Assembly: GCF_004761865.1 (NCBI RefSeq)
Contig: NZ_SJDM01000010.1
Location: forward strand, 342 to 64,341
DNA length: 64,000 nt
Direction: 5' to 3'
Origin: Crenalkalicoccus roseus
Lineage (GTDB): Bacteria; Pseudomonadota; Alphaproteobacteria; Acetobacterales; Acetobacteraceae
In this document: one piece after another, positions 35,495 through 64,000 of the stretch
Layout: each line of letters starts with the position of its first letter
Position numbering within the stretch: the stretch's first letter is position 1
The notes under the pieces: model-generated
What the model was told of the DNA's origin: nothing
The model's database searches: none
The model's input: the letters and a program-made list of their open reading frames with translations, nothing else
Program-made: the position numbers and the translations under genes

Positions 35495-36775
35495 CTAGCC
35501 GGGCAGCGCCGCCTCCTCCCCCTCCGGCAGCGGGACGTTCACCGCGCCGAGGTGCAGGCGCCGCACCGTCCCCGCCACCGCCGCGTCGAGGCCCGGCCGC
35601 CGGTAGTACACGCCGCGCACGTGCAGGCAGGCGGCGATGGCGCGCAGGAAGGCCGCGGTCAGCGCCGGGTCGGGCGGCGGCGCCTCCCGCCAGAACGCAT
35701 CGAGCGGCCCGCGCCAGACGAGGCCCTCGACGCCGTAGATCGCCCGCCCAAGCGCGCAGGTCGCCCGCCCCATGGCGATGGAGCGGATGCCGACCGTGCT
35801 GTTGACGGTGACGACGCCGCGGCAGGCCTCGATCACCGGGTCCATGTGCAGCGCGCCGTCGAGGACATGCACCCGCCCCTCCACGCCCGAGGCGGCGGCG
35901 ATGCGGCGGATGCGCCGCCCCCAGGCCTTCAGCCCCGGATCGAGCGGATGCACCTTCACCAGCAGGTGCGCCTCCGCCGCCGCGCCGCGCGCGAAGCTCT
36001 CCACCGCCAGCGCGATCGCCTCGTCGTTGCTGCGGAAGTCGGAATAGGCGCGGATGGAGTAGTCGTTCTCCATCTGCATGGCGAAGAGGTAGAGCGGCCC
36101 CCGCCCGCGCAGCGCGTCGAGCGCCGCCGCCGCGCGCCGCGTGTCCCGCCCGCGCCTGAGCAGCCGCAGCGCGGTGCCGAGATAGGCCGGGATCGGGTGG
36201 TGCAGCAGCCAGGTCTCGTAGTGGCGGAACGGGAAGGGCAGCAGGTTCGCCAGGTGGAAGGCCACGTCCCACGCCGCCTGGCGCGGGAAGCTGTCGGCGA
36301 AGCGCGGCGTCATGTCCGGGGCCGGGCAGGCGGCGGCGAGGGCGCGGATCGCCGCCGGCTCGCGCGGGAAGCGGCTCTCCGCGCCCATCCCGTCGCGCTC
36401 CAGCACGACCCAGTCGGGGCGGATGTAGCCGAAATCGGTGACGGTGACGGCGATGCCGCGCGCCCGCGCCGCCTCGATGGCGATGCGGTGATAGGCGCGC
36501 TGCTCGCCGAGCAGCACGAGGTCGGTGATGGCGTGGCGGTCGAGGAAGGCGCCGACGAATCCGGGCCAGTCCCGCAGCCGGCCGCGGAAGTCCACCGCGC
36601 CAGGGCCGCGCCAGAACAGCCGGTCGCCGAGGCAGAGGTTGATGCGGTGCGCGGCGTGGCCGAGCGCGCGCAGCCCCGCCGCCACCTCGGCGAAGAAGGG
36701 CGAGACGGGGCCCTGCAGGAACAGGAAGCGGCGGGGCGGCGGCGGCCGCTCCGGCACGGGGAGGATCACGTTCAT
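35495..36775 (-). CDS. KpsS-like capsule polysaccharide protein (Capsule_synth; putative Kdo transferase)
   Basis: A 426-residue cytoplasmic protein of the KpsS/RkpJ/LipB capsule family. The N-terminus ([20 protein letters not shown]) is typical. It has [37 protein letters not shown], the KVHPLD motif (274-277) and [15 protein letters not shown] (325-329), which are the signature regions of KpsS/KpsC-type beta-Kdo transferases. Such enzymes build the oligo-Kdo linker on the lipid anchor of group 2-like capsules. It lies about 1 kb beyond the PKS/oxoamine synthase operon on the same strand, with radC between. No kpsMTED genes are in view. ATG start; the open frame continues upstream without conservation. 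Confidence 0.85.
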
Positions 36776-36860: not shown

Positions 36861-37748
36861 GTGTGGCTGCGTAGGCTTCTGGGGGGAGCGTCCGGGCGCG
36901 CGGCGCCGGGAGGCGGTGCCCCCGACCATGAACACCCCCATGCGCGGATCCCCGGCCTCGCCGAGGCCGGCCCCGGCCCCATCGAGGGCCTGCCCCGCCC
37001 GGAGGCCGGGGAGCGGAGCGGCAGGGGGTGGAAGCCCGCCGCCCCCGCCGCGGCGGGGACGGAGCTTCCCTTCCCGAGCACCGGCCCGCACGGCCACCGC
37101 GGCCGGATGCGCGAGAAGCTGCTCACCCGCGGCCCCGACGCGCTGGCGGATTACGAGCTGCTCGAGATGCTGCTCTACTTCGCCATGCCGAAGGGCGACA
37201 CCAAGCCGCTGGCCAAGGCGCTGATCAACCGCTTCGGCAGCTTCGCCAGGGTGCTCGCCGCGCCGCAGCAGGCGCTGCTCGACACGCGCGGCCTCGGCCC
37301 GCACAGCGTCGCGGCGCTGAAGCTGGTGCAGGCGGCGGCGCTGCGCATGGCGCGGGCCGAGGTGATGGAGCAGCCGGTGCTGAACAACTGGGACCGGCTG
37401 ATGGACTACCTCACCGCCGCGCTGGCGCGCGAGCGGACCGAGCAGTTCCGCGTGCTGTTCCTCGACCCCAAGAACCGCCTGATCGCGGACGAGGCGCAGG
37501 CGCGCGGCACCGTCAACCACACCCCCGTCTATCCGCGGGAGGTGGTGAAGCGCGCGCTCGAGCTGCATGCGACGGCGCTGATCATGGTGCACAACCACCC
37601 CTCGGGCGACCCCACGCCGTCGCGCGCCGACATCGAGATGACGCGGGAGGTGAAGGAGGCGGCGGCGGTGCTGTCCATCGTGCTGCACGACCACGTCATC
37701 ATCGGCAACGGCCGCTGGCTGAGCTTCCGCCGCGAGGGGCTGCTGTAG
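36861..37748 (+). CDS. radC: RadC family protein (JAB/MPN domain)
   Basis: The conserved RadC region begins at [20 protein letters not shown] (about residue 80) and includes a helix-hairpin-helix ([19 protein letters not shown]). The JAMM metal motif follows: [20 protein letters not shown], then [15 protein letters not shown]. Despite the name it is a JAB-type metalloprotein of unclear role, not a proven repair enzyme. The start is uncertain. The GTG at 36861, behind AGGAGG, gives 295 aa with a Pro/Gly-rich N-terminal extension; the in-frame ATG at 37107 would cut into the conserved core. Confidence 0.88.
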
Positions 37749-37762
37749 GGGCGCCGCCATGC

Positions 37763-38566
37763 TCAGGCGCCCCGCGCGCCGAGCGCCGCGCGCAGGTCGG
37801 CGAGGCCGACCGTCCGCCGCCGCCGCCGCGCCAGCGCGCGCAGCATGTCGGGCGGGGGAAAGGGGCAGTAGGGCAGCGGCGCCGGCGGGGCGGGCTCCGG
37901 CGCGCCCGCGGCGAGGGCGCGGATCGCCTGCTCGAGCAACGCCACCCCCGCCTCGTGCAGGCGCCGCGCCGCGGCGGAGGCGGTGGTGCCGGCCGGCAGC
38001 GCCAGCGCCGCCTGCGCCAGCACCGCGCCGGCGTCGATGCGCTCCGCCAGGCGGTGCACCGTGACGCCGAAGCGCGGCGGGTCCTCGGCCAGCGCCCAGA
38101 GCGTCGGCGCCGGGCCGCGGTGCAGCGGCAGCAGCGAGGGGTGCAGGTTGATCCCGCCCATGGGCGCGAGGGCGAGCGTCTCCGCGGCGAAGATGCGGTC
38201 GAAGTGGAAGGAGACGATGAGGTCCGGCCGCGCCCGGCGCAGCGCCGCGGCGGTGTCCGGCCCGTTCACCTCCTCCACCTCGAGGAGCGGGATGCCGCGC
38301 GTCGCCGCCATCGCCGCCAGCCCGTCCGCGCCGCCGAGCAGCCGCCGCGCCCGCGCCAGCATCTGCGGCAGCGCGTAGTTCACCGCGAGATAGGGCAGCA
38401 GCCGCGGGCCGGAGCGGCGCAGGTGCCGCCAGCCGGCGCGCAGCAGCCCGCCGCGCACGCCGCGCGCGCGGCCGATCAGCACCACCTCCGCCGCGCCGCC
38501 TTCGAGGAAGCGGCGCAGCGCCGCGGCGCTGAGCGCGCTCTCCAGCGTGAACAGGGCGATGCGCAT
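37763..38566 (-). CDS. Formyltransferase-family protein in the PKS operon
   Basis: 267 residues with a methionyl-tRNA/amino-sugar formyltransferase fold. The folate-site triad is intact: Asn140 and His142 in GGINLHPSLLPLHRGPAPT, and Asp178 in RLAERIDAGAVLAQ. It lacks the tRNA-binding C-terminal domain of Fmt and has an unusual basic/hydrophobic insert at about residues 35-75. It is thus more like the WbkC/VioF-type enzymes that formylate an amino group using N10-formyl-THF. It is the last gene of a four-gene operon, and its ATG overlaps the stop of the oxoamine synthase. The likely acceptor is the amine made by that synthase, or an amino sugar; this is inference. Confidence 0.82.
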   Translation of the reverse strand: MRIALFTLESALSAAALRRFLEGGAAEVVLIGRARGVRGGLLRAGWRHLRRSGPRLLPYLAVNYALPQMLARARRLLGGADGLAAMAATRGIPLLEVEEVNGPDTAAALRRARPDLIVSFHFDRIFAAETLALAPMGGINLHPSLLPLHRGPAPTLWALAEDPPRFGVTVHRLAERIDAGAVLAQAALALPAGTTASAAARRLHEAGVALLEQAIRALAAGAPEPAPPAPLPYCPFPPPDMLRALARRRRRTVGLADLRAALGARGA

Positions 38567-39861
38567 CAGCGCGACGCGGCGACGAGCGCGGCCACGGCGC
38601 GCTCGATCTCCTCCGCCGTGTGCTCGCTGCACAGGAAGAAGCGCAGCCGCGCCGAGCGCTCCGGCACCGCCGGGAACAGGATGGGCTGCACGTTCACCCC
38701 CGCCTCGAACAGCGCCGCCGCCATGCGCGCCGCCCGCACCGAGCTGCCGAGGATCACCGGCACGATGCCGAGGCCCGCGGAGCCGCCCGTGTCGAACCCC
38801 GCCTCGCGCGCAAGCCGCAGGAACAGCGCCGCGTTCTCCTGCAGCCGCCGCACCCGCCAGGGCTCGGCCCGCATCACCCGCAGCGATTCCAGCGCCGCGG
38901 CGGCGAGCGGCGGGGCGAGACCCACGGAATAGACGAAGCCCGGCGCGGCGTGGCGCAGCAGGTCCACCAGCGCGCGCCGCCCGGCGATGTAGCCGCCGCA
39001 GGCGGAGAGCGTCTTGGACAGCGTGCCCATCCAGATGTCCACGCGCGCCGGGTCCACGCCGCACTGCTCCGCCACCCCCTGGCCGGTCGGGCCGAGCACG
39101 CCGAGGGAATGCGCCTCGTCCACCATCAGCAGCGCGTCGTGGCGCTCGGCGATCTCGACGAAGCGGGCGAGGTCCGGCACGTCGCCGTCCATGCTGTAAT
39201 GGCCCTCGATCACCAGCAGGGCCCGGCCGTGGCGGCGGCGCTGCGCGGCGAGCTCGCGCTCCGCCGCGCGCCAGTCGTTGTGCGGGAAGGCGACGCGCCG
39301 CGCGCCGGCGAGCCGCGCCCCCTCCGCCACCGAGTTGTGGATCAGCGCATCGTGCAGGATCAGGTCGCGCGGCCCGAGCAGCTGGCCGATGACGGTGACG
39401 TTGGTGGCGTGCCCGCTGACCAGGGCGAGGCAGGCCTCGGCGCCGTGATGCGCGGCGAGCGCCGCCTCCAGCGCGCCATGCACCGGCCGCTCGCCCGAGG
39501 CGAGGCGGGAGGCGGAGGCGGAGACGCCGTGCCGGTCGATCGCCGCCTTGGCCGCGGCGGCGACGCGCGGATCGCCGTTCAGGCCGAGATAGTTGTAGGA
39601 GGCGAAGTTCAGGCATTCCCGCCCGCCGATCACGCTGCGCGCCCCGGCGATGCCCTCATGGGGGCGGAAATACGGGCTCTCCAGGCCGAGCGCGGCGCCG
39701 GCCTCGCGCATCATCGCGATCTCCGCCGCGCCGGGCAGGGTGGAGAGGTCGCGGCCCGGGCTCGCGGCCGGCGCGGCGGGGGCCTCCTCCCCGCGGCGCC
39801 GGGTCAGGCGCTCGAGCAGCGCCGCGCGCGCCGCCGCCGAGAGGCCGCCCATGCCGCTCAC
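38566..39861 (-). CDS. Alpha-oxoamine synthase (AONS/RkpG-like), PLP-dependent
   Basis: 431 residues. A 60-residue N-terminal extension precedes the AOS core: YFRPHEGIAGARSVIGGREC, NFASYNYLGL, VSGHATNVTVIGQLLGP, LMVDEAHSLGVLGPTGQGV, and the PLP lysine in GTLSKTLSACGGY (Lys283). The family joins an acyl thioester and an amino acid with CO2 loss to give an alpha-amino ketone. Translation starts at a GTG overlapping the PKS stop, or at an ATG three codons later. Tight coupling to a PKS with a terminal ACP and no thioesterase implies that it releases the polyketide chain. It resembles rhizobial RkpG and fungal Fum8-type logic. Confidence 0.88.
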   Translation of the reverse strand: MSGMGGLSAAARAALLERLTRRRGEEAPAAPAASPGRDLSTLPGAAEIAMMREAGAALGLESPYFRPHEGIAGARSVIGGRECLNFASYNYLGLNGDPRVAAAAKAAIDRHGVSASASRLASGERPVHGALEAALAAHHGAEACLALVSGHATNVTVIGQLLGPRDLILHDALIHNSVAEGARLAGARRVAFPHNDWRAAERELAAQRRRHGRALLVIEGHYSMDGDVPDLARFVEIAERHDALLMVDEAHSLGVLGPTGQGVAEQCGVDPARVDIWMGTLSKTLSACGGYIAGRRALVDLLRHAAPGFVYSVGLAPPLAAAALESLRVMRAEPWRVRRLQENAALFLRLAREAGFDTGGSAGLGIVPVILGSSVRAARMAAALFEAGVNVQPILFPAVPERSARLRFFLCSEHTAEEIERAVAALVAASR

Positions 39862-42800
39862 GCCGCCGCCTCCACCGCCGCCGGCGCCTCGGGCGGCGGC
39901 TCGTGCGCGGCGATCAGCGCCGCGACGCTCTCCTCCGCCCGCGCCTCGCGCGCCGCCGCCGCGATGCGCCGCGCCAGCGCCTCCACCGTCAGCGTCTCGG
40001 TCACGGCGGAGAGCGGCACCGGCATGCCGAGGCGCTGCTCCAGCGCCGTGCGCAGCTCCATCCCGCCCAGGCTGTCGAGGCCGAGCCCGGCCAGCGTCGC
40101 GTCCGGCGCCACCGCCGCCGCGGGCAGGCGCAGGATGCGGCCGAGCTCGGCGGCCAGCGCCTCGCGCAGCAGGCCGAGGGCCACCTCCTCCGGCGCGCCG
40201 CGCAGCAGGGCGCGCAGATCGGCCTCGCCCGGCAGGGCGGCGGCCTCACGCACCGCCTCGAAGGCGGGCTCGGCCAGGACGGAGAGCGCCGCCCCCGCCT
40301 CGCCCCAGGCGATGCGCGCCACCCCGGCGCAGGCGGTGCCGGCGGCGAGCAGCGCCGGCAGCGCGGCGAGCGCCGCCTCGGCCGGCACCGGCTGGGCGCC
40401 GAGGCGGCGGCGCAGCGTCTCGGCCGTGCGCGCCTCCCGCGCCAGCACGCCGGCATCGGCGATCGGCCCCCACTGCACGGCGAGCGCCGGCCGCCCCTCC
40501 GCCCGGCGGCGCCGCGCCAGCGCCTCCAGCGCCGCGTTGGCGGCGACATAGGCGGCCTGGCCGGGATTGCCGACCGCGACCGTCGCCGAGGAGAACAGCA
40601 GGAACAGCGCCAGCGGGTCGGCGGCGGTCAGGCGGTCGAGGATCTCCGCCGCGCGCAGCTTGGCCGCCAGCACCGGCGCGGCGCGCGCAGGGTCGAGCGC
40701 GGCGGCGGCGCCGTCGGCGAACACCGCGGCGGCGTGCACCACGCCGCGGATCGGCGGCATGGTGGCGCGGATCGCCCGCAGCGTCGCGGCGAGCGCCGCC
40801 TCGTCGGCGGCGTCGCAGGCCAGCAGGCAGGCGGCGGCGCCGCGCGCGGCGAGGTCGCGCAGCGCAGCCTCGGCGCCGGGCGTGTCGGGGCCGCGGCGGG
40901 AGAGCAGGGCCAGGTGGCGCACGCCCTGCGCCGCCAGGAAGCGCGCCGTCGCCAGGCCGAAGCCCTGCGCGCCGCCGACCACGACGACGGTGCCGCGCGC
41001 CGCCTGCCGCAGCGCGTCGCCGCGCGCGGGGGCCGCGCCCGCCGCCGCGGCAGGCGGGCGCAGCACCAGCTTGCCGATCCGGCGGCTGGCCTGCAGCGCG
41101 CGGAAGGCGCCCTCCGCCTCCTCCGCCGCGTGCACCGTGGCGGGCAGCGGGCGCAGCGTGCCGGCGGCGAGGCGCGCGGCGATCCCGGCCATCAGCCGCG
41201 CCGCCAGCGCCGGGCGGGCGCGCGGCAGCTCGTCCACGTCCACGGCGAACCAGGTCGCGTTGCGGCGCAACGGGCGCAGCGCCACGCGGCGGTTCTCGGC
41301 GAAGTCGCGCTTGCCGAGCTCGACGAAGCGGCCGAAGGGCCGCAGCAGGCCAAGCGAGCGCTCCATCGCCTCCCCGGAGAGGGAGTTCAGCACCACGTCC
41401 ACGCCCTCCGCCCACGCGCCGCGCAGCGCGTCGGCGAAGCCGGGGTCGCGCGAATCCAGCACCAGCGCCGCCCCGGCCGCGCGCAGGAAGGCGCGGCGCG
41501 CCGGCGTGCCGGCGGTGGCGGCGACCACGGCGCCGCGCGCCAGCGCCACCTGCAGCGCCGCGAGCCCGACCGCGCCGGCGCCGCCATGGATCAGCACCCG
41601 CTCCCCCGCCTCGACCCGCGCCAGCTCCTCCAGCGCGTGGACAGCGGTGAGGAAGGCGACCGGCACCGTCGCCGCCGCCGCCGGGTCGAGGCCGGGCGGC
41701 AGCGGCGCCAGCGCCTCGGCCCGCGTCACGGCGTGCGTCGCCAGCGCCGAGGGCGCGATGCCGAAGACGCGCTCGCCCGGGCGGAAGGGCACGCCCTCGC
41801 CCACCGCCTCCACCACCCCGGCGCATTCCATGCCGAGGCCGGGGCCGGTGAAGCCGGGCAGCAGCGTCTCCTCCGGCAGCAGGCCCTGCGCCCACATCAG
41901 GTCGCGGAAATTGATCCCCGCCGCCTCGACGCGCAGCGCCACCTCGCCGGGGCCGGGCAGGCGCGGCGCCATCCGCTCCCAGGAGAGCGTCGCGAGCTGG
42001 CCGGGCTGACGGATGGCGAGGCGCAGCGGCCCGGGCGGGCGCGGGGCGGGCGGCAGGCCGGGGCGCAGCCGCGGCACCAGCCGCGCCTCGGCGGTCAGCG
42101 TCACCTCCGCCTCGCCATCGGCCTCGTGCAGCAGCTCGACGGCGAGGCGGCGCGCCGCCGCCTCCGGCGCCAGGGCGGGGCAGAGGTCGAGGCGACGGGG
42201 CTTCAGCCCGGGATGCTCGTTGGCGAGCACGCGGCCGAGGGCGAAGACCGCCGCCGCGGCGGGGTCGTGCCGCCCGCCCTCGGGCTGCTGCCCGCCGCGC
42301 GTCACCAGGCGGAAGCCGGCCGCGTTCCCCTCTGCGGCGGCGGCGAGGCGGGCGAGGGCGGCGAGTGTCGCGGCCAGCGCCTCCGGCGTGGCGCCGCCGC
42401 CGGCCAGCGCCACCACCAGCGCGTTGTGCAGCGCGCGCGGCGGAGGGGGCGCCGCCGCGAGGTCCTCCACCGCCACCGTCGCGCCGCGCGCCTGCAGCGC
42501 CGCGGCGAGCGGCCCGCGCAGCGGCGCCATGGCGGCATCGGCCAGCAGCACCACTCGCCGCGGCAGCGGCGCGGGGAGCACGGCGGCGCCGGCGGGGGCG
42601 CGGGCGGCGAGCAGCACGGCCGGCCAGGGCGCGGCGGCGAGCGGGGTGACGGCGCCCTCCTGCCAGCCCTCTGCCGCCAGCAGCGCCGCCCAGCTCTCGG
42701 CGCCGGGCAGGGGGGAGGCGCCGCCCGGCGCGCTCCACCAGGCGGGATCCTGGCCGCAGGCGAAGTCCCAGAGGCGGCCGGGCAGCGGCTCGGCCAGCAG

Positions 42801-45800
42801 CAGCGCGCCGCCGGGGGCGGCCGCCCGGCGCAGCGCCGCCGGCAGGGAGGCGCCGGCACGCAGCCGCAGCCCGGCGCCGAGGCCGATCACCAGGTCGGCG
42901 GCGACGGGCGGCGGCTCGGCGCCGAGCGGGTCCCAGAGGGCATGGGAGACCTCCACCCCCGGCGCCTCCGGCGGCGGCGCGGCGGCGGCGCCCTCCGGCA
43001 GGCTGGCCGCGCAGTAGAGGATGCGCCGGCCCGGCCCGGCCAGGGCGGCGACGGCGCGGGCGGTCAGGCCGCCCGTCCCGGCGCCGATCTCCAGCACCCG
43101 CAGCGGGCGGGCGCGCGGCCAGCCGGCGGCAAAGACGGTGAGCGCGGCGGCGAGCACCCCGCCCAGCCGGTCGAATCCGGCCATGGCGGCGGGGAGGGCG
43201 GGCTCCGCCGGGTCCGGCGCGGCGCCCGCCAGCGCCTCCGGCAGCCGCTCCGCGGCGCGGGCGAGCCAGGCGAGTTCGGGGGCGAGGTCGGGCTGCTCCA
43301 GCAGCACCTGCCGCCAGATCTCCCCGGCCGGGGGCAGGTCGGGCGCCGGCACCGGCCGGAGCCCCGCCGGGCCCGGCGCGGCGAGGCCGTCCGCCGCCAG
43401 CTCCTCCAGCAGGGCGCGGGCATAGCGCCCGGTGGCCGGGGCGGCGGCGAGGGCGGCATGCGCCGCGGCGGCGCAGTAGCCCTCCAGCAGCATCGCCGGC
43501 TCGGGGAGGCCGAGCTCGGCGTCGCGCGCCCGCGCCGCCTCCACCGCCGGGGCGAGCGGCACCGTCTCCGGCGGCTCGGCGGCGGGGCCGGGCAGGGCGG
43601 GCAGCAGGTCGAAGCGGAAGGCGTCCGCCTCCGGCGCGGCGCGGCCGGGCAGGCGGAGGCGCTGCAGCCAGGCGCCCTCCAGCACCGCCACCGGTGCGCC
43701 GGCGGCGTCGTGCAGCACGAGGTCGGCGGCGACGCTGCGGGTGCCGCGGGCGGCGATGCGGATGGCGGCGCCGGTGGCGGGCGCGGCGTCCCGCCGGAGC
43801 GCGAGGCGGGCGAAGCGCACCGGCACCAGGCCGGTTCCGGGCTCCGCCGCCTCCTCGGCCAGCAGCCCGACCAGCCCCTGCAGCGCGCCGTCGAGCCGCG
43901 CCGGGTGCAGCAGGAAGCCGGCATCGGGCGGCGCCGCCTCCGGCAGGTCCAGCGCCGCCCGGGCGGTCCCGGCGGCGGGGTCGAGCGCGACCGAGGCGAC
44001 GGCGGCGAAGGCGGGGCCGTAGCCGAGCCCGGCGCCGGCGGCGAGCGCGCGCAGCGCCGCGCCGTCCATGCGCGAGCCGCCCGAGGGCGGCGGCGCGGCC
44101 GGCGGCAGGCGGGGCAGCGGGCCGGCGCGGCCCTCGGCGTGCAGCGTCCAGGGCTCGTCGCTCAACCGGCGGCGGCTGCGCAGGGTGAAGCGGCCGGACT
44201 CGTCGAGCTCGCAGCGCAGCTCCCGCGTCACCCCCTCCTCCAGCGGCAGGGCATGCGGCACGGCGAACTCCGCCACCTCCAGCGCCGGCGCCTCCGGGTG
44301 GCGGAGCGCGGCGGCGGCGAGCGCCATCTCCAGCATCGCCGCCGCCGGCAGCACCGGCTCCCCGGCCAGGCGGTGATCGGCGAGCCAGGGCTCCTGCGCG
44401 GTGTCCAGGTGGCGGGTCCAGACCCCCGGCTCCGCCCCCTCGCGGCAGCCGAGCAGGGGGTGGTCGTGGCGCGGCGCGGCGAGCGGCGTGGCCTCCGGCG
44501 TCGGCGCGTACCAGATGCGGCGGCGCGCGAAGGGGGTGCGCGGCACGGCGCGGCGCTCGGCGGGGCCGGCGAAGGCGGGGCCGCCGCGCGGGTCGGCGCC
44601 GCGGACGAAGGCGCGGTCGGCGATGCCGGGGAAGGGGTCGCCCTCCCCGTCGCGGCGCGAGAGGGTGGGGAGGATCGCCGCCTCGGAGCCGGCGGCGCGC
44701 AGGCTCTCGCGCAGGTAGGATTGCAGCGCCGGGTGCGGGCCGATCTCCAGGAACAGCGCCGGGCGCCGCGCCGCCGCGGCCTCGACCGCCGCCCGGAAGC
44801 GCACCGGCTCGCGCAGGTTGCGCCACCAGTAGGCGGCGTCGCAGGCTTCCAGCGCCTCCCCGGTGACGCTGGAGAGGAAGGGCAGGCGCGGCGGCCCGCC
44901 CGCGAGGCCGCCGAGCTCGGCCAGCAGCCCCGCGCGCACCGGGTCCATCGCGGCGCTGTGGAAGGCGTAGTCGAGGTCGAGCGGCACGAAGCTCCAGCCC
45001 CGCGCCTCCGCCGCCTCGGCCAGGCGGCGCAGCGCCGCCTCCGGGCCGGCGATGGTGAGGGCGGCTGGCCCGTTGATCGCCGCGATCTCGAGCCCCGGCC
45101 CGCACGCGGCCAGCACCGGCGGCGCCTCCGCCTCGGGCGCGCCGAGCGCGGCCATGCGGCCCTCGCCGCGGGTGCGGTGCTGGTGGCGGCTGCGCGCCAC
45201 GATCAGCCGCGCGGCTTCGGGCAGGCCGAGCAGCCCGGCGGCCAGCGCCGCCGCCACCTCGCCGACCGAATGGCCGAGGCAGAGGGCGGGGCGGATGCCC
45301 TGCGCCGCCAGCGCCGCGACGATGCCGTGCTGCACGGCGAAGAGCAGCGGCTGGGCGCAGTCCGTCGCCGCCAGCGCCTCCGCTGTCACGCCCTCCGCCA
45401 GCCGCTCCGCCACCGACCAGCCGAGCAGCGGGGCGAGGGCGGCGTCGGCCTCCGCGACGGCGGCGCGGAAGGCGGGGCTGGCGGCGAAGGCGGCGCGGGC
45501 CATGCCGGGCCATTGCGCGCCGTTGCCGCTGAAGACGAAGGCGATGCCCTCGCCGCCGCGCGGCGCCTCCCCCGCGATGGCGGCCTCGGCCTTGCCGCCC
45601 TCCCAGGCGGCGAGGGCGGCGGCGAGCGCTTGCGGGTCCCCGCCGCGCAGCGCCAGCCGGTGCGGCCGCAGGTCGCGGTGCCGCGCCGCGCCGCGGAGCA
45701 GCGCCGGCAGGGCGGGGGCGGGCGTCTCCGCCAGCCGCTCCCGCCAGCGCCCGGCGAGCGCGCGCAGCGCCTCGGCGGAGGGGGCGGAGAGCAGCAGCGG

Positions 45801-47147
45801 CGGCGGGCCGGCCTCGGGCGCCGTGTCCGGCCGGGGCTGGCGCGGCGCCGGGCCGAGCAGCGCGCAGGCGTTGGTGCCGCCGAAGCCGAAGCTGTTGACG
45901 CCGATGACGGCGCGCCCGCGCCGCGGCAGCGCCTCCGCCGCCACCGGCACGCGCAGCCCGAGGCCGGCGAAGTCGATGGCGGGGTTCGGCGTCTCGAAGT
46001 GGAGCGAGGGCGGGATGCGGCCGTGCTCCAGCACCAGCATCGCCTTCAGCAGGCCGACCAGGCCGGAGGCGGGCTCGGTGTGGCCGATATTGGTCTTGGC
46101 CGAGCCGATCGGCAGCGGCGCCTCGCGCCGGCGGCGGCCGATGGCGGCGCCGATGGCCCCGGCCTCGATCGGGTCGCCGGCGGCGGTGCCGGTGCCGTGC
46201 GCCTCGAAATAGGCGAGGCGGTCGGGCGTGACGCCGGCCTCGGCCAGCGCGCGCTCGATCAGCGCCTGCTGCGCCGCCTGGCTCGGCAGGGAGAGGCCGA
46301 CCGTGCGCCCGGCGGCGTTGGCGGCGGTGCCGAGGATGACGGCGCGGATCTCGTCCCCGTCCGCCAGCGCGTCCTCCAGCCGCTTCAGCACCATCACCAC
46401 GGCGCCCTCGGCGCGGACATAGCCGTCCGCGCGGGCGTCGAAGGCGTGGCAGCGCCCGCGCGGGGAGAGCATCCCGGCGCGGGCGAAGCCGATGAAGGGG
46501 AAGGGGGAGAGCAGCAGGTTCACCCCGCCCACCAGGGCGGCGGGCAGGCGCCCCGCGCGCAGCGCCTCGCAGGCCCAGTGCAGCGCTACCAGGGCGGAGG
46601 AGCAGGCGGTGTCCACCGTCTGCGCCGGCCCGCGCAGGTCGAAGACGTTGCCGATGCGGTTGGCGAGGATGGAGAGCGCCGAACCGGTCATGAACCAGCG
46701 GTCGCCCGAGGCGGCGTCGGCCTGGCGCAGGTCGCCGTAGTCGGTGAGCGAGGCGCCGACGAAGACGCCGGTGCCCGACCCGGCGAGCGCGGAGGGCGGC
46801 CAGCCGGCATCCTCCAGCGCCTCGGCGGCGGCTTCGAGCAGCAGGCGCTGCTGCGGGTCCATCTCCGCCGCCTCGCGCGGGGAGATGCCGAAGGCGCCGG
46901 GGTCGAAGCCGGCGACGTCGCCGAGCGTGCCGGCGGCGAAGCTGTAGGACTTGCCCGGCTCGCCGCGGCGCGGATGGGCGAAGCGGGCCTGGGTGAAGCG
47001 GTCGGCCGGCACGGTGGTGACGGCGTCCCGCCCCTCGGCGAGCAGGCGCCAGAAGGCGTCCGGGTCCGGCGCGCCGGGCAGGCGGCAGGCGGCGCCGAGG
47101 ATGGCGATGGCGCCGCCCTGGCGGCGCGGGGGTGGGGGCGGGATCAT
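39858..47147 (-). CDS. Single-module highly reducing type I polyketide synthase
   Basis: 2429 residues, KS-AT-DH-cMT-psiKR-ER-KR-ACP. KS about 12-430: Cys182 in VDTACSSALVAL, His317 in EAHGTGTAAGD, His356 in NIGHTEPASG. AT about 535-830: FSGNGAQWPGM, Ser627 in GHSVGE, YAFH at 727-730 (closest to malonyl-type HAFH). DH about 893-1170: His925 in HRLAGEPVLP, Asp1086 in LDGALQ. Methyltransferase about 1340-1520 with VLEIGAGTGG. A pseudo-KR at 1525-1700. ER about 1710-2028 with HGGAGAVGLAA. KR about 2050-2230: GGAQGFG, Tyr2200. ACP Ser2359 in LGLDSL. No thioesterase. Architecture resembles RkpA, which makes a specialised capsular lipid. The ATG overlaps the GT4 stop. Confidence 0.95.
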   Translation of the reverse strand: MIPPPPPRRQGGAIAILGAACRLPGAPDPDAFWRLLAEGRDAVTTVPADRFTQARFAHPRRGEPGKSYSFAAGTLGDVAGFDPGAFGISPREAAEMDPQQRLLLEAAAEALEDAGWPPSALAGSGTGVFVGASLTDYGDLRQADAASGDRWFMTGSALSILANRIGNVFDLRGPAQTVDTACSSALVALHWACEALRAGRLPAALVGGVNLLLSPFPFIGFARAGMLSPRGRCHAFDARADGYVRAEGAVVMVLKRLEDALADGDEIRAVILGTAANAAGRTVGLSLPSQAAQQALIERALAEAGVTPDRLAYFEAHGTGTAAGDPIEAGAIGAAIGRRRREAPLPIGSAKTNIGHTEPASGLVGLLKAMLVLEHGRIPPSLHFETPNPAIDFAGLGLRVPVAAEALPRRGRAVIGVNSFGFGGTNACALLGPAPRQPRPDTAPEAGPPPLLLSAPSAEALRALAGRWRERLAETPAPALPALLRGAARHRDLRPHRLALRGGDPQALAAALAAWEGGKAEAAIAGEAPRGGEGIAFVFSGNGAQWPGMARAAFAASPAFRAAVAEADAALAPLLGWSVAERLAEGVTAEALAATDCAQPLLFAVQHGIVAALAAQGIRPALCLGHSVGEVAAALAAGLLGLPEAARLIVARSRHQHRTRGEGRMAALGAPEAEAPPVLAACGPGLEIAAINGPAALTIAGPEAALRRLAEAAEARGWSFVPLDLDYAFHSAAMDPVRAGLLAELGGLAGGPPRLPFLSSVTGEALEACDAAYWWRNLREPVRFRAAVEAAAARRPALFLEIGPHPALQSYLRESLRAAGSEAAILPTLSRRDGEGDPFPGIADRAFVRGADPRGGPAFAGPAERRAVPRTPFARRRIWYAPTPEATPLAAPRHDHPLLGCREGAEPGVWTRHLDTAQEPWLADHRLAGEPVLPAAAMLEMALAAAALRHPEAPALEVAEFAVPHALPLEEGVTRELRCELDESGRFTLRSRRRLSDEPWTLHAEGRAGPLPRLPPAAPPPSGGSRMDGAALRALAAGAGLGYGPAFAAVASVALDPAAGTARAALDLPEAAPPDAGFLLHPARLDGALQGLVGLLAEEAAEPGTGLVPVRFARLALRRDAAPATGAAIRIAARGTRSVAADLVLHDAAGAPVAVLEGAWLQRLRLPGRAAPEADAFRFDLLPALPGPAAEPPETVPLAPAVEAARARDAELGLPEPAMLLEGYCAAAAHAALAAAPATGRYARALLEELAADGLAAPGPAGLRPVPAPDLPPAGEIWRQVLLEQPDLAPELAWLARAAERLPEALAGAAPDPAEPALPAAMAGFDRLGGVLAAALTVFAAGWPRARPLRVLEIGAGTGGLTARAVAALAGPGRRILYCAASLPEGAAAAPPPEAPGVEVSHALWDPLGAEPPPVAADLVIGLGAGLRLRAGASLPAALRRAAAPGGALLLAEPLPGRLWDFACGQDPAWWSAPGGASPLPGAESWAALLAAEGWQEGAVTPLAAAPWPAVLLAARAPAGAAVLPAPLPRRVVLLADAAMAPLRGPLAAALQARGATVAVEDLAAAPPPPRALHNALVVALAGGGATPEALAATLAALARLAAAAEGNAAGFRLVTRGGQQPEGGRHDPAAAAVFALGRVLANEHPGLKPRRLDLCPALAPEAAARRLAVELLHEADGEAEVTLTAEARLVPRLRPGLPPAPRPPGPLRLAIRQPGQLATLSWERMAPRLPGPGEVALRVEAAGINFRDLMWAQGLLPEETLLPGFTGPGLGMECAGVVEAVGEGVPFRPGERVFGIAPSALATHAVTRAEALAPLPPGLDPAAAATVPVAFLTAVHALEELARVEAGERVLIHGGAGAVGLAALQVALARGAVVAATAGTPARRAFLRAAGAALVLDSRDPGFADALRGAWAEGVDVVLNSLSGEAMERSLGLLRPFGRFVELGKRDFAENRRVALRPLRRNATWFAVDVDELPRARPALAARLMAGIAARLAAGTLRPLPATVHAAEEAEGAFRALQASRRIGKLVLRPPAAAAGAAPARGDALRQAARGTVVVVGGAQGFGLATARFLAAQGVRHLALLSRRGPDTPGAEAALRDLAARGAAACLLACDAADEAALAATLRAIRATMPPIRGVVHAAAVFADGAAAALDPARAAPVLAAKLRAAEILDRLTAADPLALFLLFSSATVAVGNPGQAAYVAANAALEALARRRRAEGRPALAVQWGPIADAGVLAREARTAETLRRRLGAQPVPAEAALAALPALLAAGTACAGVARIAWGEAGAALSVLAEPAFEAVREAAALPGEADLRALLRGAPEEVALGLLREALAAELGRILRLPAAAVAPDATLAGLGLDSLGGMELRTALEQRLGMPVPLSAVTETLTVEALARRIAAAAREARAEESVAALIAAHEPPPEAPAAVEAAA

Positions 47148-48433
47148 GCCGGGCGCGCCCCGGCGGCGAACGCGGCCCGCCCCGGCAGGGCGAGCGGCGG
47201 GACGGGCAGGGGGCGCTCCGCGGCGCGCGTCGCCGCCACCCGTTCGAGCAGCCCCTCCACCGCCGCGAAATGCGCCTCCCAGCTCGGTGGCCGCCAGGCG
47301 GCGAGGCGGGCGAGCTGCGCCGCGCGCCGCGGCGACTCCGGGGCGGCGTAGTCGAGCACGGCGCGGCGCCAGGCGGCGCCGTCCAGCGGGTCGAGGAACT
47401 CCGGCACCGCGCCGCCCACCTCGCGCAGTGCCGGGATGTCGCTGCAGATCGCCGGCACGCCGAGCGCCAGCGCCTCGGCCAGCGGCAGGCCGTAGCCCTC
47501 GGCGAAGCTCGGGAACAGCAGGGCGCGGCTGCCGGCGAGCAGGGCGGCGGCCTCGGCGTCGGAGGGGGTGCCGAGCTCCTGCACCAGGCCGCGCAGCGCC
47601 CCGCAGCGGTCGAGCAGGTCGAGGATGTTCTCGTTCTCCCAGCCGCGGCGGCCGAGCAGCAGCAGGCGCGGCGCGCCGGGCGCCGGCCGGGCGGCGAATT
47701 CCCGCCAGAGGTGCAGCAGCAGCAGGTGGTTCTTGCGCGGCTCGATGGTGCCGAGGCAGACGAAGCGCGGCGCCTCCTCCGCCGGCGCCGGCGGGGCGGG
47801 CGGCCGCGGATCGAGGCCGAGCGGCGCCACGGCGAGGGGTGGGGCCACGCCACGGGCGGCCAGGTGCGGCCGCAGGCTGGCCTCGGTGGCGGCGGAGTTC
47901 ACCAGGATGCCGTCGGCCAGCGCCGCGGTGATGGCGACGCGCCGCGCATGGCGCTCGACCTGCGGCGGGCGGGCGTATTCGGGATGGGTCAGCGGGATCA
48001 GGTCGTGGATCAGCGGCACGAAGGCCGCGCCCGCGCGACGCAGCGCCATGATCGGCGCGGCGCGGTCGAGCCCGCGATGCGAGACCAGCAGGAAGACGGG
48101 GCGGCGGTGCGCGCCGAGCGTCGCCCTGAGCGCCGTGCGCCCGGCGCCGAGCACCTGCGCGGCGGCAAGGCCGGCGGCACAGCGCCAGCGGCGCGTGGCC
48201 GCCTCGCGCCCCCCGCCTTCCCAGGCTGCCCGCACCGCCTCCACCAGCGCCGCCACCGCCTCCCGCGGCACGGCGGCGAAGCCGCCCCAGGCGCTCTGCG
48301 CGACGAAGGTGCATTCCCGCGCCGGCCGGGCGAGCCAGCGGCGCGCATAGGCCATCTCGACACGGTCGATGCCCGAGGGGGCGGCGCGGTGGACGGAGAA
48401 CAGCAGGCGCGAGATGTCGAGGATGACGTGCAC
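47144..48433 (-). CDS. Glycosyltransferase family 4 (first gene of the PKS operon)
   Basis: 429 residues, GT-B fold. The N-terminus HVILDISRLLFSVHRAAPSG, then IDRVEMAYARRWL, resembles mannosyl/rhamnosyltransferase-like GT4 enzymes. The C-terminal donor domain has FVCLGTIEPRKNHLLLLHLW, RRGWENENILDLLDRC, and the GT4 E-x7-E block LFPSFAEGYGLPLAEALALG. A GTG start with GGGAG just upstream is used. It leads a tightly overlapping operon with the PKS, oxoamine synthase and formyltransferase. It may glycosylate the lipid product, or act in polysaccharide assembly on that lipid. No membrane segment is seen. Confidence 0.88.
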   Translation of the reverse strand: MHVILDISRLLFSVHRAAPSGIDRVEMAYARRWLARPARECTFVAQSAWGGFAAVPREAVAALVEAVRAAWEGGGREAATRRWRCAAGLAAAQVLGAGRTALRATLGAHRRPVFLLVSHRGLDRAAPIMALRRAGAAFVPLIHDLIPLTHPEYARPPQVERHARRVAITAALADGILVNSAATEASLRPHLAARGVAPPLAVAPLGLDPRPPAPPAPAEEAPRFVCLGTIEPRKNHLLLLHLWREFAARPAPGAPRLLLLGRRGWENENILDLLDRCGALRGLVQELGTPSDAEAAALLAGSRALLFPSFAEGYGLPLAEALALGVPAICSDIPALREVGGAVPEFLDPLDGAAWRRAVLDYAAPESPRRAAQLARLAAWRPPSWEAHFAAVEGLLERVAATRAAERPLPVPPLALPGRAAFAAGARPA

Positions 48434-48612: not shown

Positions 48613-49044
48613 GTGAGCATCTGGAAGAAGCCCTTCACCCAAGACGGCTTCGCCGCGGCGCATGAGGGGACGCTGCCCGGCCTGCTCGGCATCCGCCTGC
48701 TCGAGATCGGCCCCGACTTCGTGCGCGCCGAGATGCCGGTGGATGAGCGCCACATCCAGCCCTTCGGCATCCTGCACGGCGGGGCGAGCGTGGTGCTGGC
48801 GGAGACGATCGGCTCCTTCTGCGGCGTGATGGCGCTGCCGGAGGGCCAGGCGGTGGTGGGGGCGGAGGTGAGCGCGAGTCACCTCGCACCGGTGCGGCGG
48901 GGCGATTCGGTGCAGGCGCTGTGCCGGCCGCTGCGGCTCGGCCGCACCCTGCAGGTGTGGGAGATCGCGCTGCGCCGCGGCGACGGCGCGCTCACCTGCG
49001 TCTGCCGCCTGACTGTTGCGGTGCGCGAGGCGCGGGCGGGCTGA
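48613..49044 (+). CDS. PaaI-type hotdog thioesterase
   Basis: 143 residues from a GTG start, with GAGGAG about 11 nt upstream. The hotdog core is LPGLLGIRLLEIGPDFVRAE, IQPFGILHGGASVVLAETIG (the HGG active-site motif followed by the catalytic Glu), and VGAEVSASHLAPVRRGDSVQ. Best matches by pattern are PaaI/MenI-like acyl-CoA thioesterases. It is divergent from the PKS operon, whose synthase lacks a thioesterase domain. A type II editing role is therefore possible, but the oxoamine synthase can do the release. General acyl-CoA housekeeping is the default. Confidence 0.88.
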   Translation: MSIWKKPFTQDGFAAAHEGTLPGLLGIRLLEIGPDFVRAEMPVDERHIQPFGILHGGASVVLAETIGSFCGVMALPEGQAVVGAEVSASHLAPVRRGDSVQALCRPLRLGRTLQVWEIALRRGDGALTCVCRLTVAVREARAG

Positions 49045-61180: not shown

Positions 61181-62341
61181 TCACAACCCCGACAGCACCG
61201 CGGCGCAGACCCGCTCCGCCTGCGCCTCGTCGAGATAGGGGTGCATGGGCAGGGACAGCACGCGGTCGCACAGCGTCTCGCTCACCGGCAGGGGCGGCGG
61301 GCCGCCGGCGATCGAGGCCGCGTGGTGGCGGGCATAGGCCGGCTGATGGTGCAGCGGCTTCGGGTAGTAGATCGCGCTCGGCACGCCCTGCGCCGCCATC
61401 GCCTGCTGCACCCGCGCCCGCGCCGCGGCATCGGGCAGCAGGATGGTGTAGATGCCCCAGGCGCTCTCCGCCCCCTCCGGCAGGCGCGGCACCGCCACAT
61501 GCGCGCCGAGCCGCTCGGCGTAGAACGCGGCGAGCCGGCGCCGCGCCGCGAGCTCGTCGGCGAGCAGCGGCAGCTTGGCGAGCAGGATCGCCGCCTGGAT
61601 GGTGTCGAGGCGGCCGTTCATGCCGGTGCGCAGCACCTCGTAGCGGGTGCGCCCCTCGCCATGGGTGCGCAGCGAGCGGTAGAGCTCGGCGCGGCCCGCA
61701 TCATTGGTCAGCAGCGCCCCCCCGTCGCCGTAGCAGCCGAGCGTCTTGGTCGGGTAGAAGCTGCAGGCCGTCGCATCCGCCCAGGCGCCGAGGCGGCGCC
61801 CGTGCAGCGCGGCGCCGAAGGCCTGCGCCGCGTCGTCGAGCGCGAACATGCCGCGCCGCGCGCACAGCGCCTCGATCGCCGGCCAGTCCGCGGGCAGGCC
61901 GTAGAGATCGACGCCGATCACCGCGCGCGGGCGCAGCCGCCCCTCGCGCTCCACCAGCGCGATGCGCCGCTCCAAATCCGCAAGGTCGAGGTTGAAGCTC
62001 GTCTCCTCCACGTCCACGAAGACCGGGGTGGCGCCGAGCACCAGCGGCACCTCGGCGGTGGCGGTGTAGGTGAAGGCGGGCAGGAACACCGCGTCGCCCG
62101 GCCCGATCCCCTCCGCCATCAGGGCGATCTGCAGCGCGTCCGTGCCGGAGGAGACGCCGACGCAGTGCGCCGCGCCGGTGAACTCGGCGAGGCGCGATTC
62201 CAGCTCCTCCACCTCCGGCCCCTGCACGAAGCGGCCGGAATCGAGCACCGCGGCGATGCGCAGGTCGATGTCGTCGCGGATCAGCGCCTGCTGCGCCTTC
62301 ATGTCGAAGAAGGCGATGGGACGGGGACGGGGAGCGGTCAT
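61181..62341 (-). CDS. DegT/DnrJ/EryC1 family sugar aminotransferase
   Basis: 386 residues. PLP-enzyme landmarks: IAFFDMKAQQALIRDDIDLR, GVSSGTDALQIALMAEGIGP, VFLPAFTYTATAEVPLVLGA, LDDAAQAFGAALHGRRLG, the Schiff-base Lys in CSFYPTKTLGCYGDGGALLT, and GMNGRLDTIQAAILLAKL. The family transaminates NDP-4-keto (or 3-keto) sugars. Immediately upstream on the same strand is a WbpM/PglF-type 4,6-dehydratase, so the pair should make a UDP-4-amino-4,6-dideoxy-HexNAc or a related sugar (WbpE/PglE-like logic). The last ATG before the conserved start is used. Confidence 0.9.
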   Translation of the reverse strand: MTAPRPRPIAFFDMKAQQALIRDDIDLRIAAVLDSGRFVQGPEVEELESRLAEFTGAAHCVGVSSGTDALQIALMAEGIGPGDAVFLPAFTYTATAEVPLVLGATPVFVDVEETSFNLDLADLERRIALVEREGRLRPRAVIGVDLYGLPADWPAIEALCARRGMFALDDAAQAFGAALHGRRLGAWADATACSFYPTKTLGCYGDGGALLTNDAGRAELYRSLRTHGEGRTRYEVLRTGMNGRLDTIQAAILLAKLPLLADELAARRRLAAFYAERLGAHVAVPRLPEGAESAWGIYTILLPDAAARARVQQAMAAQGVPSAIYYPKPLHHQPAYARHHAASIAGGPPPLPVSETLCDRVLSLPMHPYLDEAQAERVCAAVLSGL

Positions 62342-62511
62342 GCGCGAGCAACCTGATGCGGCCGGGCGGGGCGCCCGCCCCCCAATTACGGTCCGCATCG
62401 TGGCCGCGGAAGTCACCGCTCGTGTCATTCGGCAACGCGAGGAGCGGCGGCGTTGCGGGTCCGGATCGGATCGCGGGCCCTGCCGGAAGGCGGCGCCGGC
62501 CCGCCGCGGGA

Positions 62512-64000
62512 TCAGGGCGCGCGTCCCTCGGCGCGCGCCGCGGCTGGCGCGCTGTCGGCGTTGTGGTCGAACTCCGGCACCAGCCGGCCGAGCTGCGCCA
62601 GCGCCGCGCGCGCATGGCCGGCGCGGCAGGCGGAGGCGATCTCGTCGATCGCGCGCCCGACCAGCGCGGGATCGGCGGTGCGCGGCGTCGCCACCAGCAG
62701 GCCGGGGAAGGCGGTCGGGCGCGGCGGCTCCTGGCCGTGGAACAGCTCCTCGTACAGCTTCTCGCCGGGGCGCAGCCCGGTGAAGCGGATCTCCACATCC
62801 TCCTCGGGCCTGAGGCCGGCGAGGCGGATCATGCGCCGCGCCAGATCGACGATCTTCACCGGCTTGCCCATGTCGAGCACGAAGATGCCGCCCTCGGCCA
62901 GCTCGGGCGGCTGGTCGGCGCGGTCCTCGGCGCCGATCACGCTCGCCTGCAGCACAAGGCCGACCGCCTCGCGCACCGTCATGAAATAGCGGCGCATGTC
63001 CGGGTGGGTGACGGTGAGCGGCCCGCCGCGCTCGAGCTGGCGGCGGAACAGCGGCACGACGGAGCCGGTGGAGCCGAGCACGTTGCCGAAGCGCACGGTG
63101 ACGCAGCGCATGCCGCGCCCGCCGGTGCGCGCCGACATGTCGAGCGCCTGGCAGTACATCTCCGCCAGCCGCTTCGAGGCGCCCATCACCGAGGTCGGGT
63201 TCACCGCCTTGTCGGTGGAGATGAACACCATGGCGCGGCAGCCCACCGCGGCGGCGGCGTCGGCGACGATGCGCGTGCCCTGGGCGTTGGTCAGCAGCCC
63301 CTCCAGCGGATCGTTCTCCACCATCGGCACGTGCTTGAGCGCGGCGGCGTGGAAGACGAGCTCGGGGCGGATCTCCTCGAACAGGCGGCGGATGCGGCCC
63401 TCGTCGCGGATGTCGGCGAGCACGGCGCGGCGCGGCACGTCCGGATGGCGCTCGCGCAGCTCGAGGTCGATCTCGTAGAGGACGTACTCGCCGTGATCGA
63501 GCAGGGTGAGCTGCGCCGGCCCGAGGGCGGCCACCTGCCGCGCCAGCTCGCCGCCGATCGTGCCCCCGGCGCCGGTGACCAGCACGCGCCTGCCCTGCAC
63601 CAGCCGCGCCATGCCCTCGCGGTCGAGCGGCACCTGCGGGCGGTCCAGCAGGTCCTCGATCGCGACCGGGCGCAGGTGCAGGCGGGTGCGGCCGGCGGGG
63701 CCGATCTGGTCGGCAAGGCGCCGCGCCGCGGGATCGAGGGCGGTGACCGAGGGGGCGCGGCGCACCGGCACGCCGTGGCGGTCCGCGGCGTCCAGCAGCC
63801 GTTCCAGCGCCAGCCCCTGCACCTGCGGCGTCGCCAGCACGATCAGCGCCGGCAGCCTGCCCTCCGCGCGCATCCGCTCGAGCACCGGGGCGATGTCGTC
63901 CACCGTGCCGAGGATGGGGTGGCCGTGGATCCGCCGCCCCGTCTGGCGCGAGCGCAGGGAGAGGATGCCGACGACGCGGAAGGTCGGCGCGCGCTCCTGC
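62512..64000 (-). CDS. WbpM/PglF/CapD-type NDP-sugar 4,6-dehydratase, 5' end outside window
   Basis: 496 C-terminal residues are visible; the frame enters from the window end (QERAPTFRVVGILSLRSRQT). The first about 120 residues are the cytoplasmic regulatory Rossmann region that follows the membrane helices in WbpM-type proteins. The SDR catalytic domain has VLVTGAGGTIGGELARQVAA, VFHAAALKHVPMVENDPLEG, FISTDKAVNPTSVMGASKRL (Met in place of catalytic Tyr, as in WbpM/FlaA1) and TGLRPGEKLYEELFHGQEPP. It dehydrates UDP-GlcNAc to the 4-keto-6-deoxy sugar, the first step before the DegT aminotransferase. GlmU/GlmS in this window supply the precursor. The 170-nt gap to DegT holds a degenerate family A-like word at 62468-62489. 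Confidence 0.92.
   Translation of the reverse strand, partial: QERAPTFRVVGILSLRSRQTGRRIHGHPILGTVDDIAPVLERMRAEGRLPALIVLATPQVQGLALERLLDAADRHGVPVRRAPSVTALDPAARRLADQIGPAGRTRLHLRPVAIEDLLDRPQVPLDREGMARLVQGRRVLVTGAGGTIGGELARQVAALGPAQLTLLDHGEYVLYEIDLELRERHPDVPRRAVLADIRDEGRIRRLFEEIRPELVFHAAALKHVPMVENDPLEGLLTNAQGTRIVADAAAAVGCRAMVFISTDKAVNPTSVMGASKRLAEMYCQALDMSARTGGRGMRCVTVRFGNVLGSTGSVVPLFRRQLERGGPLTVTHPDMRRYFMTVREAVGLVLQASVIGAEDRADQPPELAEGGIFVLDMGKPVKIVDLARRMIRLAGLRPEEDVEIRFTGLRPGEKLYEELFHGQEPPRPTAFPGLLVATPRTADPALVGRAIDEIASACRAGHARAALAQLGRLVPEFDHNADSAPAAARAEGRAP

Follow-up and report, generated by a model that had tools for sequence, protein, structure and literature searches.

What lipid would be made by a bacterial operon that joins a polyketide synthase to an oxoamine synthase and a formyltransferase, and for what purpose? 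The question is raised by a 64,000-nucleotide stretch of the Crenalkalicoccus roseus genome (contig NZ_SJDM01000010.1, positions 342 to 64,341; the window hereafter), in which genes for a GT4 glycosyltransferase, a mono-modular iterative type I polyketide synthase (PKS), an alpha-oxoamine synthase (AOS) and a formyltransferase (FT) follow one another on the reverse strand, with a gene for a KpsS-like capsule initiation enzyme as a fifth member. The host is Roseomonas-like, with a genome of 4.43 Mb in 127 contigs; the GC content of the window is 76%. We propose, with a probability of roughly 0.57, that the operon makes a saturated 3-keto amino lipid, which is N-formylated, glycosylated and primed by the KpsS-like protein for capsule assembly. 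The proposal starts from the identity of the genes, their intact active-site residues and conserved linkage, the co-occurrence of FT with AOS and the mutual exclusion of FT and a GNAT-like protein, all of which were directly observed. The PKS, AOS and KpsS core is the known layout of the rkp/wcb-type capsule loci, met also in sga-type sphingolipid loci, and is not new; the FT and its exchange with the GNAT-like protein are the new part. In the literature searched, we found no paper joining an oxoamine synthase with a formyltransferase, and nothing relevant on N-formyl amino lipids among 20 of the 21 papers that matched.

Composition and conservation of the operon

The unit begins with the GT4 gene (47144..48433; 429 aa, GTG start; Pfam Glycos_transf_1, E 1.7e-13) and continues with the PKS (39858..47147; 2429 aa), the AOS (38566..39861; 431 aa from GTG; Pfam Aminotran_1_2, E 3.7e-50; NCBIfam bioF, E 3.1e-101, below its cut-off) and the FT (37763..38566; 267 aa; Formyl_trans_N, E 1.2e-21). 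The Pfam and NCBIfam matches agree with the four families named in an earlier reading made from the letters alone (the sequence-only reading). Its claim of 4-nt overlaps throughout holds for the GT/PKS (ATGA) and PKS/AOS (GTGA) junctions, the latter only with the GTG start of AOS, for which an ATG at 39852 is a possible alternative; AOS and FT, however, overlap by 1 nt (TGATG). The same reading counted four genes and missed the fifth: the KpsS-like gene (35495..36775, reverse strand; 426 aa; Capsule_synth PF05159, E 4.8e-61) lies beyond a radC gene on the opposite strand (36861..37748, forward; PF04002, E 3.5e-45). The radC gene stands outside the system, and the 34 fetched FT loci of relatives hold no RadC match.

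To place these genes in an evolutionary context, we surveyed 200 genomes from the family, among them the one that holds the window, with orthologue thresholds set after the scores had been seen (FT at E<=1e-48, AOS and the GNAT-like protein at >=55% identity). FT orthologues are found in 35 genomes, set off by a gap in E-values from 9.2e-49 to 1.2e-14, and AOS orthologues in 58. Among the 35 FT genomes, all but one encode AOS (34/35; Fisher 1.3e-21, without correction for kinship); that one, G012, has a completeness of 86% and does contain the PKS. The 34 fetched loci represent all FT genomes except the window's own; gene calls in them come from a home-made codon-score caller, so that start positions are approximate. 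In 26 of these loci no more than 700 nt separate FT from an AOS upstream of it, and of the 20 that extend at least 12 kb upstream, 17 retain the orthologous GT-PKS-AOS-FT block; the remaining FT loci are unlinked, rearranged or at contig ends. The retention of the block across the family rules out a chance co-location of the genes and bears out the idea, already part of the sequence-only reading, of one functional unit. The synteny that it had proposed to look for in relatives is thus largely there, the partial departures being the 8 loci in which FT and AOS lie apart.

A scan of named species, of which the best 80 of 227 stretches encoding FT relatives were analyzed, extends this picture, although the two surveys overlap in that some named loci are the same contigs as family-survey loci (e.g., L112 and L034). 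By NCBI family, these 80 comprise 35 Methylobacteriaceae, 24 Roseomonadaceae, 12 Acetobacteraceae, two Burkholderiaceae, one Beijerinckiaceae and six unplaced. AOS is encoded in the locus in 42 and elsewhere in the genome for 37 of the other 38 (together 79/80); a KpsS match is found in 63 of the 80 loci. All 35 Methylobacterium loci contain a KpsS match and have a short-chain dehydrogenase/reductase (SDR) gene immediately before FT; this SDR resembles the one that follows AOS in other PKS-AOS loci, and one locus (L139) adds genes for Poly_export and sulfatase-fold proteins and for a second Capsule_synth protein.

Several loci show other arrangements. Outside the FT locus, the PKS was searched for in five genomes and found in four (G071, G187, G149 and G012; KS domains 62-73% identical), whereas in the fifth, the metagenome-assembled genome (MAG) G207, neither PKS nor AOS was found. 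Two loci (L054 and L055) show AOS-FT-KpsS without an adjacent PKS, an orthologous PKS being on another contig. In two Roseomonas MAGs (L117 and L119) FT lies outside the operon, in L119 after a histidinol dehydrogenase gene, with AOS elsewhere in the genome.

Pfam resolves the PKS into KS-AT-DH-ER-KR-PP-binding, with no thioesterase domain at E<=1e-3, and the KS, AT, DH, ER, KR and ACP motifs match the consensus in a 65-row PKS alignment that includes duplicate loci. Between DH and ER lies a region with no Pfam methyltransferase match at E<=1e-3, which weakly resembles PKS C-methyltransferase (cMT) structures (CurJ, E 6.4e-5). All three glycines of the GxGxG motif are present in 12 of the 65 rows, the window's included. 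Two residues are missing from the window's cMT, the acidic one that would follow the second strand (Glu at the nearest column in 11/65 rows) and the His of the catalytic stretch (present in 9/65). We take the S-adenosylmethionine motif I, the acidic residue and the catalytic His to be needed positions. The cMT thus appears degenerate, no C-methylation is expected, and active C-methylation is ruled out by the absence of the acidic residue and the His. Accordingly, the complete module of the sequence-only reading stands in its six other domains and in the absence of a thioesterase, but not in its cMT, and the C-methylated chain that it had envisaged is not supported.

The AOS has H175, E219, D248, H251 and K283 aligned with H133, E175, D204, H207 and K236 of Escherichia coli BioF, and these residues, presumably with the same catalytic roles, are kept in all 77 aligned rows, the two E. 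coli proteins not counted. In a phylogenetic tree of a quick kind, which carries long-branch warnings, AOS and the Sinorhizobium meliloti AOS fall in one group (99*) that excludes the host's own serine palmitoyltransferase (SPT)-like protein, BioF and KBL. The SPT-like protein, 36% identical to AOS, stands apart in this tree; long branches meet there. We predict that AOS takes the chain from the ACP and joins it to an amino acid. Activity of AOS with CoA in vitro would not by itself refute this prediction, since acyl-CoA surrogates served in the assay of its homologue SgaB (PMC12134224; this and the other papers given by PMC number are drawn on in part). AOS may alternatively be a plain BioF or an enzyme that uses CoA thioesters only.

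The formyltransferase and the slot after the oxoamine synthase

The AlphaFold2 model of FT (mean pLDDT 94.2) superimposes on both Fmt and ArnA with a Z-score of about 21 over about 212 residues. FT shares with these enzymes the fold and the Asn/His/Asp site (N140, H142 and D178, which we take to be catalytic), invariant in 48 of 48 aligned sequences. The model ends after two short helices and has no C-terminal tRNA-binding domain of the OB-fold (oligonucleotide/oligosaccharide-binding) type, so that the intact site and the missing domain noticed from the letters alone are both confirmed. FT further differs from ArnA and Fmt in a conserved helical hairpin (residues 40-76), comprising two Arg- and hydrophobic-rich helices with invariant H48, G53 and L60, which might dock on the membrane or a lipid, and in having AOS as its genomic partner. 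We predict FT to be an N-formyltransferase of a lipid amine. Among the best 20 of 135 matches in a plasmid search with FT, one is from Methylobacterium and the rest are mostly arnA.

The substrate of this enzyme is suggested by what takes its place. Of the 58 AOS genomes, 24 lack FT, and in 15 of these the gene directly after AOS encodes a GNAT-like protein of about 290-400 aa, which is itself followed by KpsS in 13 of the 15 loci. Close orthologues of this protein (>=55%) are found in 16 of the 200 genomes, none of which has FT (expected overlap 9.4, naive P 9e-9, relatedness not corrected); in one of them (G011) the orthologue lies away from the AOS slot. Mapped on the AOS tree, the FT and GNAT labels require 6 changes as against 14.3 in shuffles, and 3 of them are forced by supported branches; two genera (g4 and g17) hold both states. 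The simplest reading is that the slot after AOS serves the capping of the new amine, by an acyl or a formyl group. Since a GNAT-like N-acyltransferase repeatedly replaces FT and never co-occurs with it, the amine of the AOS product is the likely FT substrate, which lends indirect support to the earlier suggestion that the amino ketone is N-formylated. The exchange also amounts to a natural experiment: one gene swap should alter the N-cap and leave the rest intact.

Distant GNAT homologues (27-43%) are present in many more genomes of the family, and in all four further AOS loci fetched such a homologue adjoins, or is one gene from, an oxoamine synthase. The host itself has, on contig C106 (L108, 9560-15112), a GNAT homologue (42% to the slot GNAT), the SPT-like AOS, an ACP, an AMP ligase and then a GT4; this is a canonical sphingolipid-type locus, separate from the operon. 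AOS (45-50% to the window's), SDR and GNAT homologue genes stand side by side at L077 7138-10472, L101 4822-8167 and L102 1-3255, in stretches that hold no PKS; L077 also has a diacylglycerol-kinase-type gene and L101 two Capsule_synth-type genes. Small annotated GNAT proteins are further found in plasmid capsule loci of Pseudomonas (L193, about 3 kb from AOS) and Paraburkholderia (L197, directly after AOS). For Caulobacter, acylation of the 3-keto base by the bacterial ceramide synthase has been proposed to precede reduction (PMC11087976), and the GNAT-like protein might be termed ceramide-synthase-like, by neighborhood only and with the Caulobacter enzyme known here by description.

A proposed capsule connection and competing explanations

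The fifth gene gives the lipid a possible destination. Its product matches the NCBIfam KpsS model (E 5.5e-46, 157.6 bits against a cut-off of 600), and a KpsS gene lies within 2.5 kb downstream of FT on the same strand in 20 of the 34 relatives. On another contig of the host (C72; L109, 2539-9373) we found genes for a Poly_export protein, a Wzz-like protein (below the Pfam cut-off), an ABC ATPase and an ABC-2 membrane protein, which make up a predicted ABC-type capsule export set, and near them one for a KpsC-like protein of 622 aa. In ABC-exported capsules, the first 3-deoxy-D-manno-octulosonic acid (Kdo) residue is placed on the acceptor lipid by KpsS, and its extension is the task of KpsC (PMC12220298). 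The KpsS-like gene, together with the export genes for a capsule on the other contig, makes a capsule acceptor lipid, rather than a free glycolipid, the likely purpose of the operon.

In the pathway that we envisage, the PKS would assemble on its ACP a chain that is saturated and probably carries no methyl branches. AOS would set this chain free by condensing it, with decarboxylation, with an amino acid, to give a 3-keto long-chain base; L-serine, the amino acid used by SgaB, is the likeliest choice. Both steps have a precedent in Pseudomonas fluorescens, where PfSgaB is encoded beside an iterative PKS and condenses acyl-CoA surrogates with L-serine, its cluster making sphinganines (PMC12134224). 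FT would then formylate the new amine, with 10-formyl-tetrahydrofolate as the donor, as the repeated exchange in the slot suggests, and the N-formyl group would protect the unstable alpha-amino ketone. Going by their gene families, the GT4 enzyme would add a sugar to the head group, KpsS the first Kdo, and the KpsC-like protein and the ABC-type exporter from the other contig would build and export the capsule. More tentatively, and at somewhat less than even odds, a dedicated lipid N-formyltransferase would make an N-formyl long-chain base that is both the acceptor and the outer-membrane anchor of the ABC-exported capsule, so that Roseomonas-like and Methylobacterium capsules would be carried on sphingoid lipids that a PKS makes and whose N-cap, formyl or acyl, is interchangeable, and not on phosphatidylglycerol. 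On this proposal the PKS-AOS lipid gains a testable role in capsule initiation, and the FT family would have a lipid-amine substrate.

A number of observations weigh against this proposal. The KpsS-like protein scores below the NCBIfam cut-off and has no PDB sequence match; of the 34 loci, 14 have no KpsS downstream of FT and 8 have no AOS in the 700 nt before it, some of these loci being at contig ends. The GNAT-like protein has only weak Pfam matches (of 7 proteins searched, 3 match Acetyltransf_1 at E<=1e-3) and no match in the PDB sequence search. A filled slot is not a requirement, since a close GNAT orthologue, too, is missing from 8 of the 24 FT-less AOS genomes, and five FT genomes (G000, G062, G120, G137 and G171) carry a distant GNAT homologue (37-43%) elsewhere. 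The nearest solved relatives of FT are the sugar N-formyltransferase ArnA and methionyl-tRNA formyltransferase. The operon genes include no SDR ketoreductase, which is present in the rkp and sga loci, and the ketone may therefore persist. Finally, the capsule of S. meliloti 1021 reportedly has a phospholipid anchor (going by the title of Fraysse 2005), and given this the rkp lipid may not be the anchor.

Two other explanations accept the lipid as proposed and differ in its use. The first, which we hold to be unlikely, is that PKS, AOS, FT and GT together make a free N-formyl glyco-amino-lipid, in the membrane or secreted, much as the SgaAB sphinganines are taken to be free, and that its link to capsule is no more than co-location with KpsS. 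The SgaAB products are indeed described without mention of a capsule in the text drawn on (PMC12134224), two loci (L040 and L048) lack KpsS beside FT despite having room for it, and in two others (L059 and L060) KpsS is encoded on the opposite strand at a distance of about 2-3 kb. Against this stand the recurrence of KpsS after FT (20/34) and after the GNAT-like gene (13/15), its presence in all 35 Methylobacterium FT loci, and the capsule biosynthesis and export genes of the rkp and wcb clusters (PMC3908369, PMC7902896).

A second explanation, to which we likewise assign a low probability, is that the lipid only regulates or assists capsule export, with the capsule itself built on phosphatidylglycerol as in E. 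coli. It draws on the phospholipid anchor reported for the S. meliloti 1021 capsular polysaccharide (title of Fraysse 2005) and on the rkp-1 cluster being reportedly required for secretion (title of Muller 2009). The KpsS of group 2 capsules, moreover, acts on phosphatidylglycerol (PMC12220298). The lipid genes here, however, adjoin the KpsS-like gene, and the KpsS concerned is far from the curated KpsS family.

The explanation that we regard as quite improbable is that FT is an ArnA-like sugar N-formyltransferase, whose substrate would be an amino sugar, either in the capsule or in the head group that GT4 attaches. ArnA is its best PDB sequence match (92.6 bits) and a fold match too, and a WbpM-like dehydratase and a DegT aminotransferase of a surface-sugar pathway are encoded at the right end of the window (61181-63999). 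This explanation is weakened by the absence (E<=1e-20) of homologues of the window's DegT, WbpM-like and epimerase proteins, the only amino-sugar genes searched for, from the 34 + 80 FT loci, the window serving as positive control; FT instead tracks AOS and exchanges places with the GNAT-like protein. A plain methionyl-tRNA formyltransferase is ruled out by the missing tRNA domain and by two other Formyl_trans_N genes of the host, both of which score above FT.

Relation to known systems and locus variants

The closest comparison is with the rhizobial rkp-1 region of S. meliloti, in which we take rkpA to encode the PKS, rkpG the AOS and rkpH the SDR, with rkpI and rkpJ as further genes. The composition of this cluster is given in PMC7902896; the S. 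meliloti record used here (L192) is itself without rkp names and shows the order PKS-AOS-SDR-capsule. Its AOS is 51% identical to the window's, and the RkpA/RkpG analogy, drawn at the outset from the letters, holds. Like such loci, the window has a mono-modular reducing type I PKS, an adjacent RkpG-like AOS and a KpsS/RkpJ-like gene in the unit; the PKS-AOS core is thus common to both, whereas the rkp-1 region continues with an SDR and a capsule gene and the operon here lacks the RkpH-like ketoreductase and has FT and GT4 instead. The Burkholderia wcb cluster, known here from the literature, likewise has a type I PKS (wcbR) in a capsule cluster and is called rkp-homologous (PMC3908369).

In capsule loci on Caballeronia and Paraburkholderia plasmids (L194 and L197), an annotated LpxC-type deacetylase separates PKS from AOS and an LTA-synthase gene precedes the PKS, with no annotated FT in the stretch; these loci are another tailoring variant. 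On a Planktothrix plasmid (p3; L196 1560-9158), AOS forms the C-terminus of the PKS, with glycosyltransferase genes nearby.

The SgaAB(C) system of P. fluorescens MYb115 is comparable by its description: an iterative PKS is followed by an AOS dependent on pyridoxal phosphate, as here, and 6,101 sga-like clusters are reported (PMC12134224). It differs in that sphinganines and phosphoglycerol sphingolipids are reported as its products, with no formyl group or capsule mentioned in the text drawn on; the main text of that paper names neither capsules nor rkp or wcb. On a Pseudomonas plasmid (pL21564-1; L193 4323-25146) the annotation order is PKS-AOS-PhyH-capsule-GNAT-LTA synthase-SDR-capsule and, further on, KpsF-KdsB, with four genes (phytanoyl-CoA dioxygenase, capsular polysaccharide biosynthesis, GNAT and LTA synthase family) between AOS and SDR. 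The MYb115 locus tags (PKS 19805, AOS 19800, SDR 19775; PMC12134224) are spaced so as to leave room for the same number of genes; hence our guess that the published sga cluster may itself be a capsule locus. The present comparison joins two lines of work, on PKS-derived sphingolipids and on rkp/wcb capsule genes, that are without mutual reference in PMC12134224.

The canonical sphingolipid pathway (Spt, bCerS and CerR) also begins with an oxoamine synthase, followed, in one proposal, by N-acylation of the 3-keto base ahead of its reduction; others have proposed the reverse order of these two steps (PMC11087976). The operon departs from it in having a dedicated PKS in place of an ACP and AMP ligase, and a formyl in place of a fatty acyl cap.

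Two minor features may bear on the structure of the lipid. Beside the GT4 gene lies a divergent gene for a hotdog-fold thioesterase (48613..49044, forward strand; PF03061, E 8.8e-18), possibly related to the system, which occupies the same position in 12 of the 34 FT loci and could conceivably edit the PKS chain. In one relative (L042, 5665-6627), Pfam identifies a 2-oxoglutarate/Fe(II) oxygenase between FT and KpsS, with a like-sized gene at L047 1360-2319; the L042 oxygenase suggests a hydroxylated variant of the lipid.

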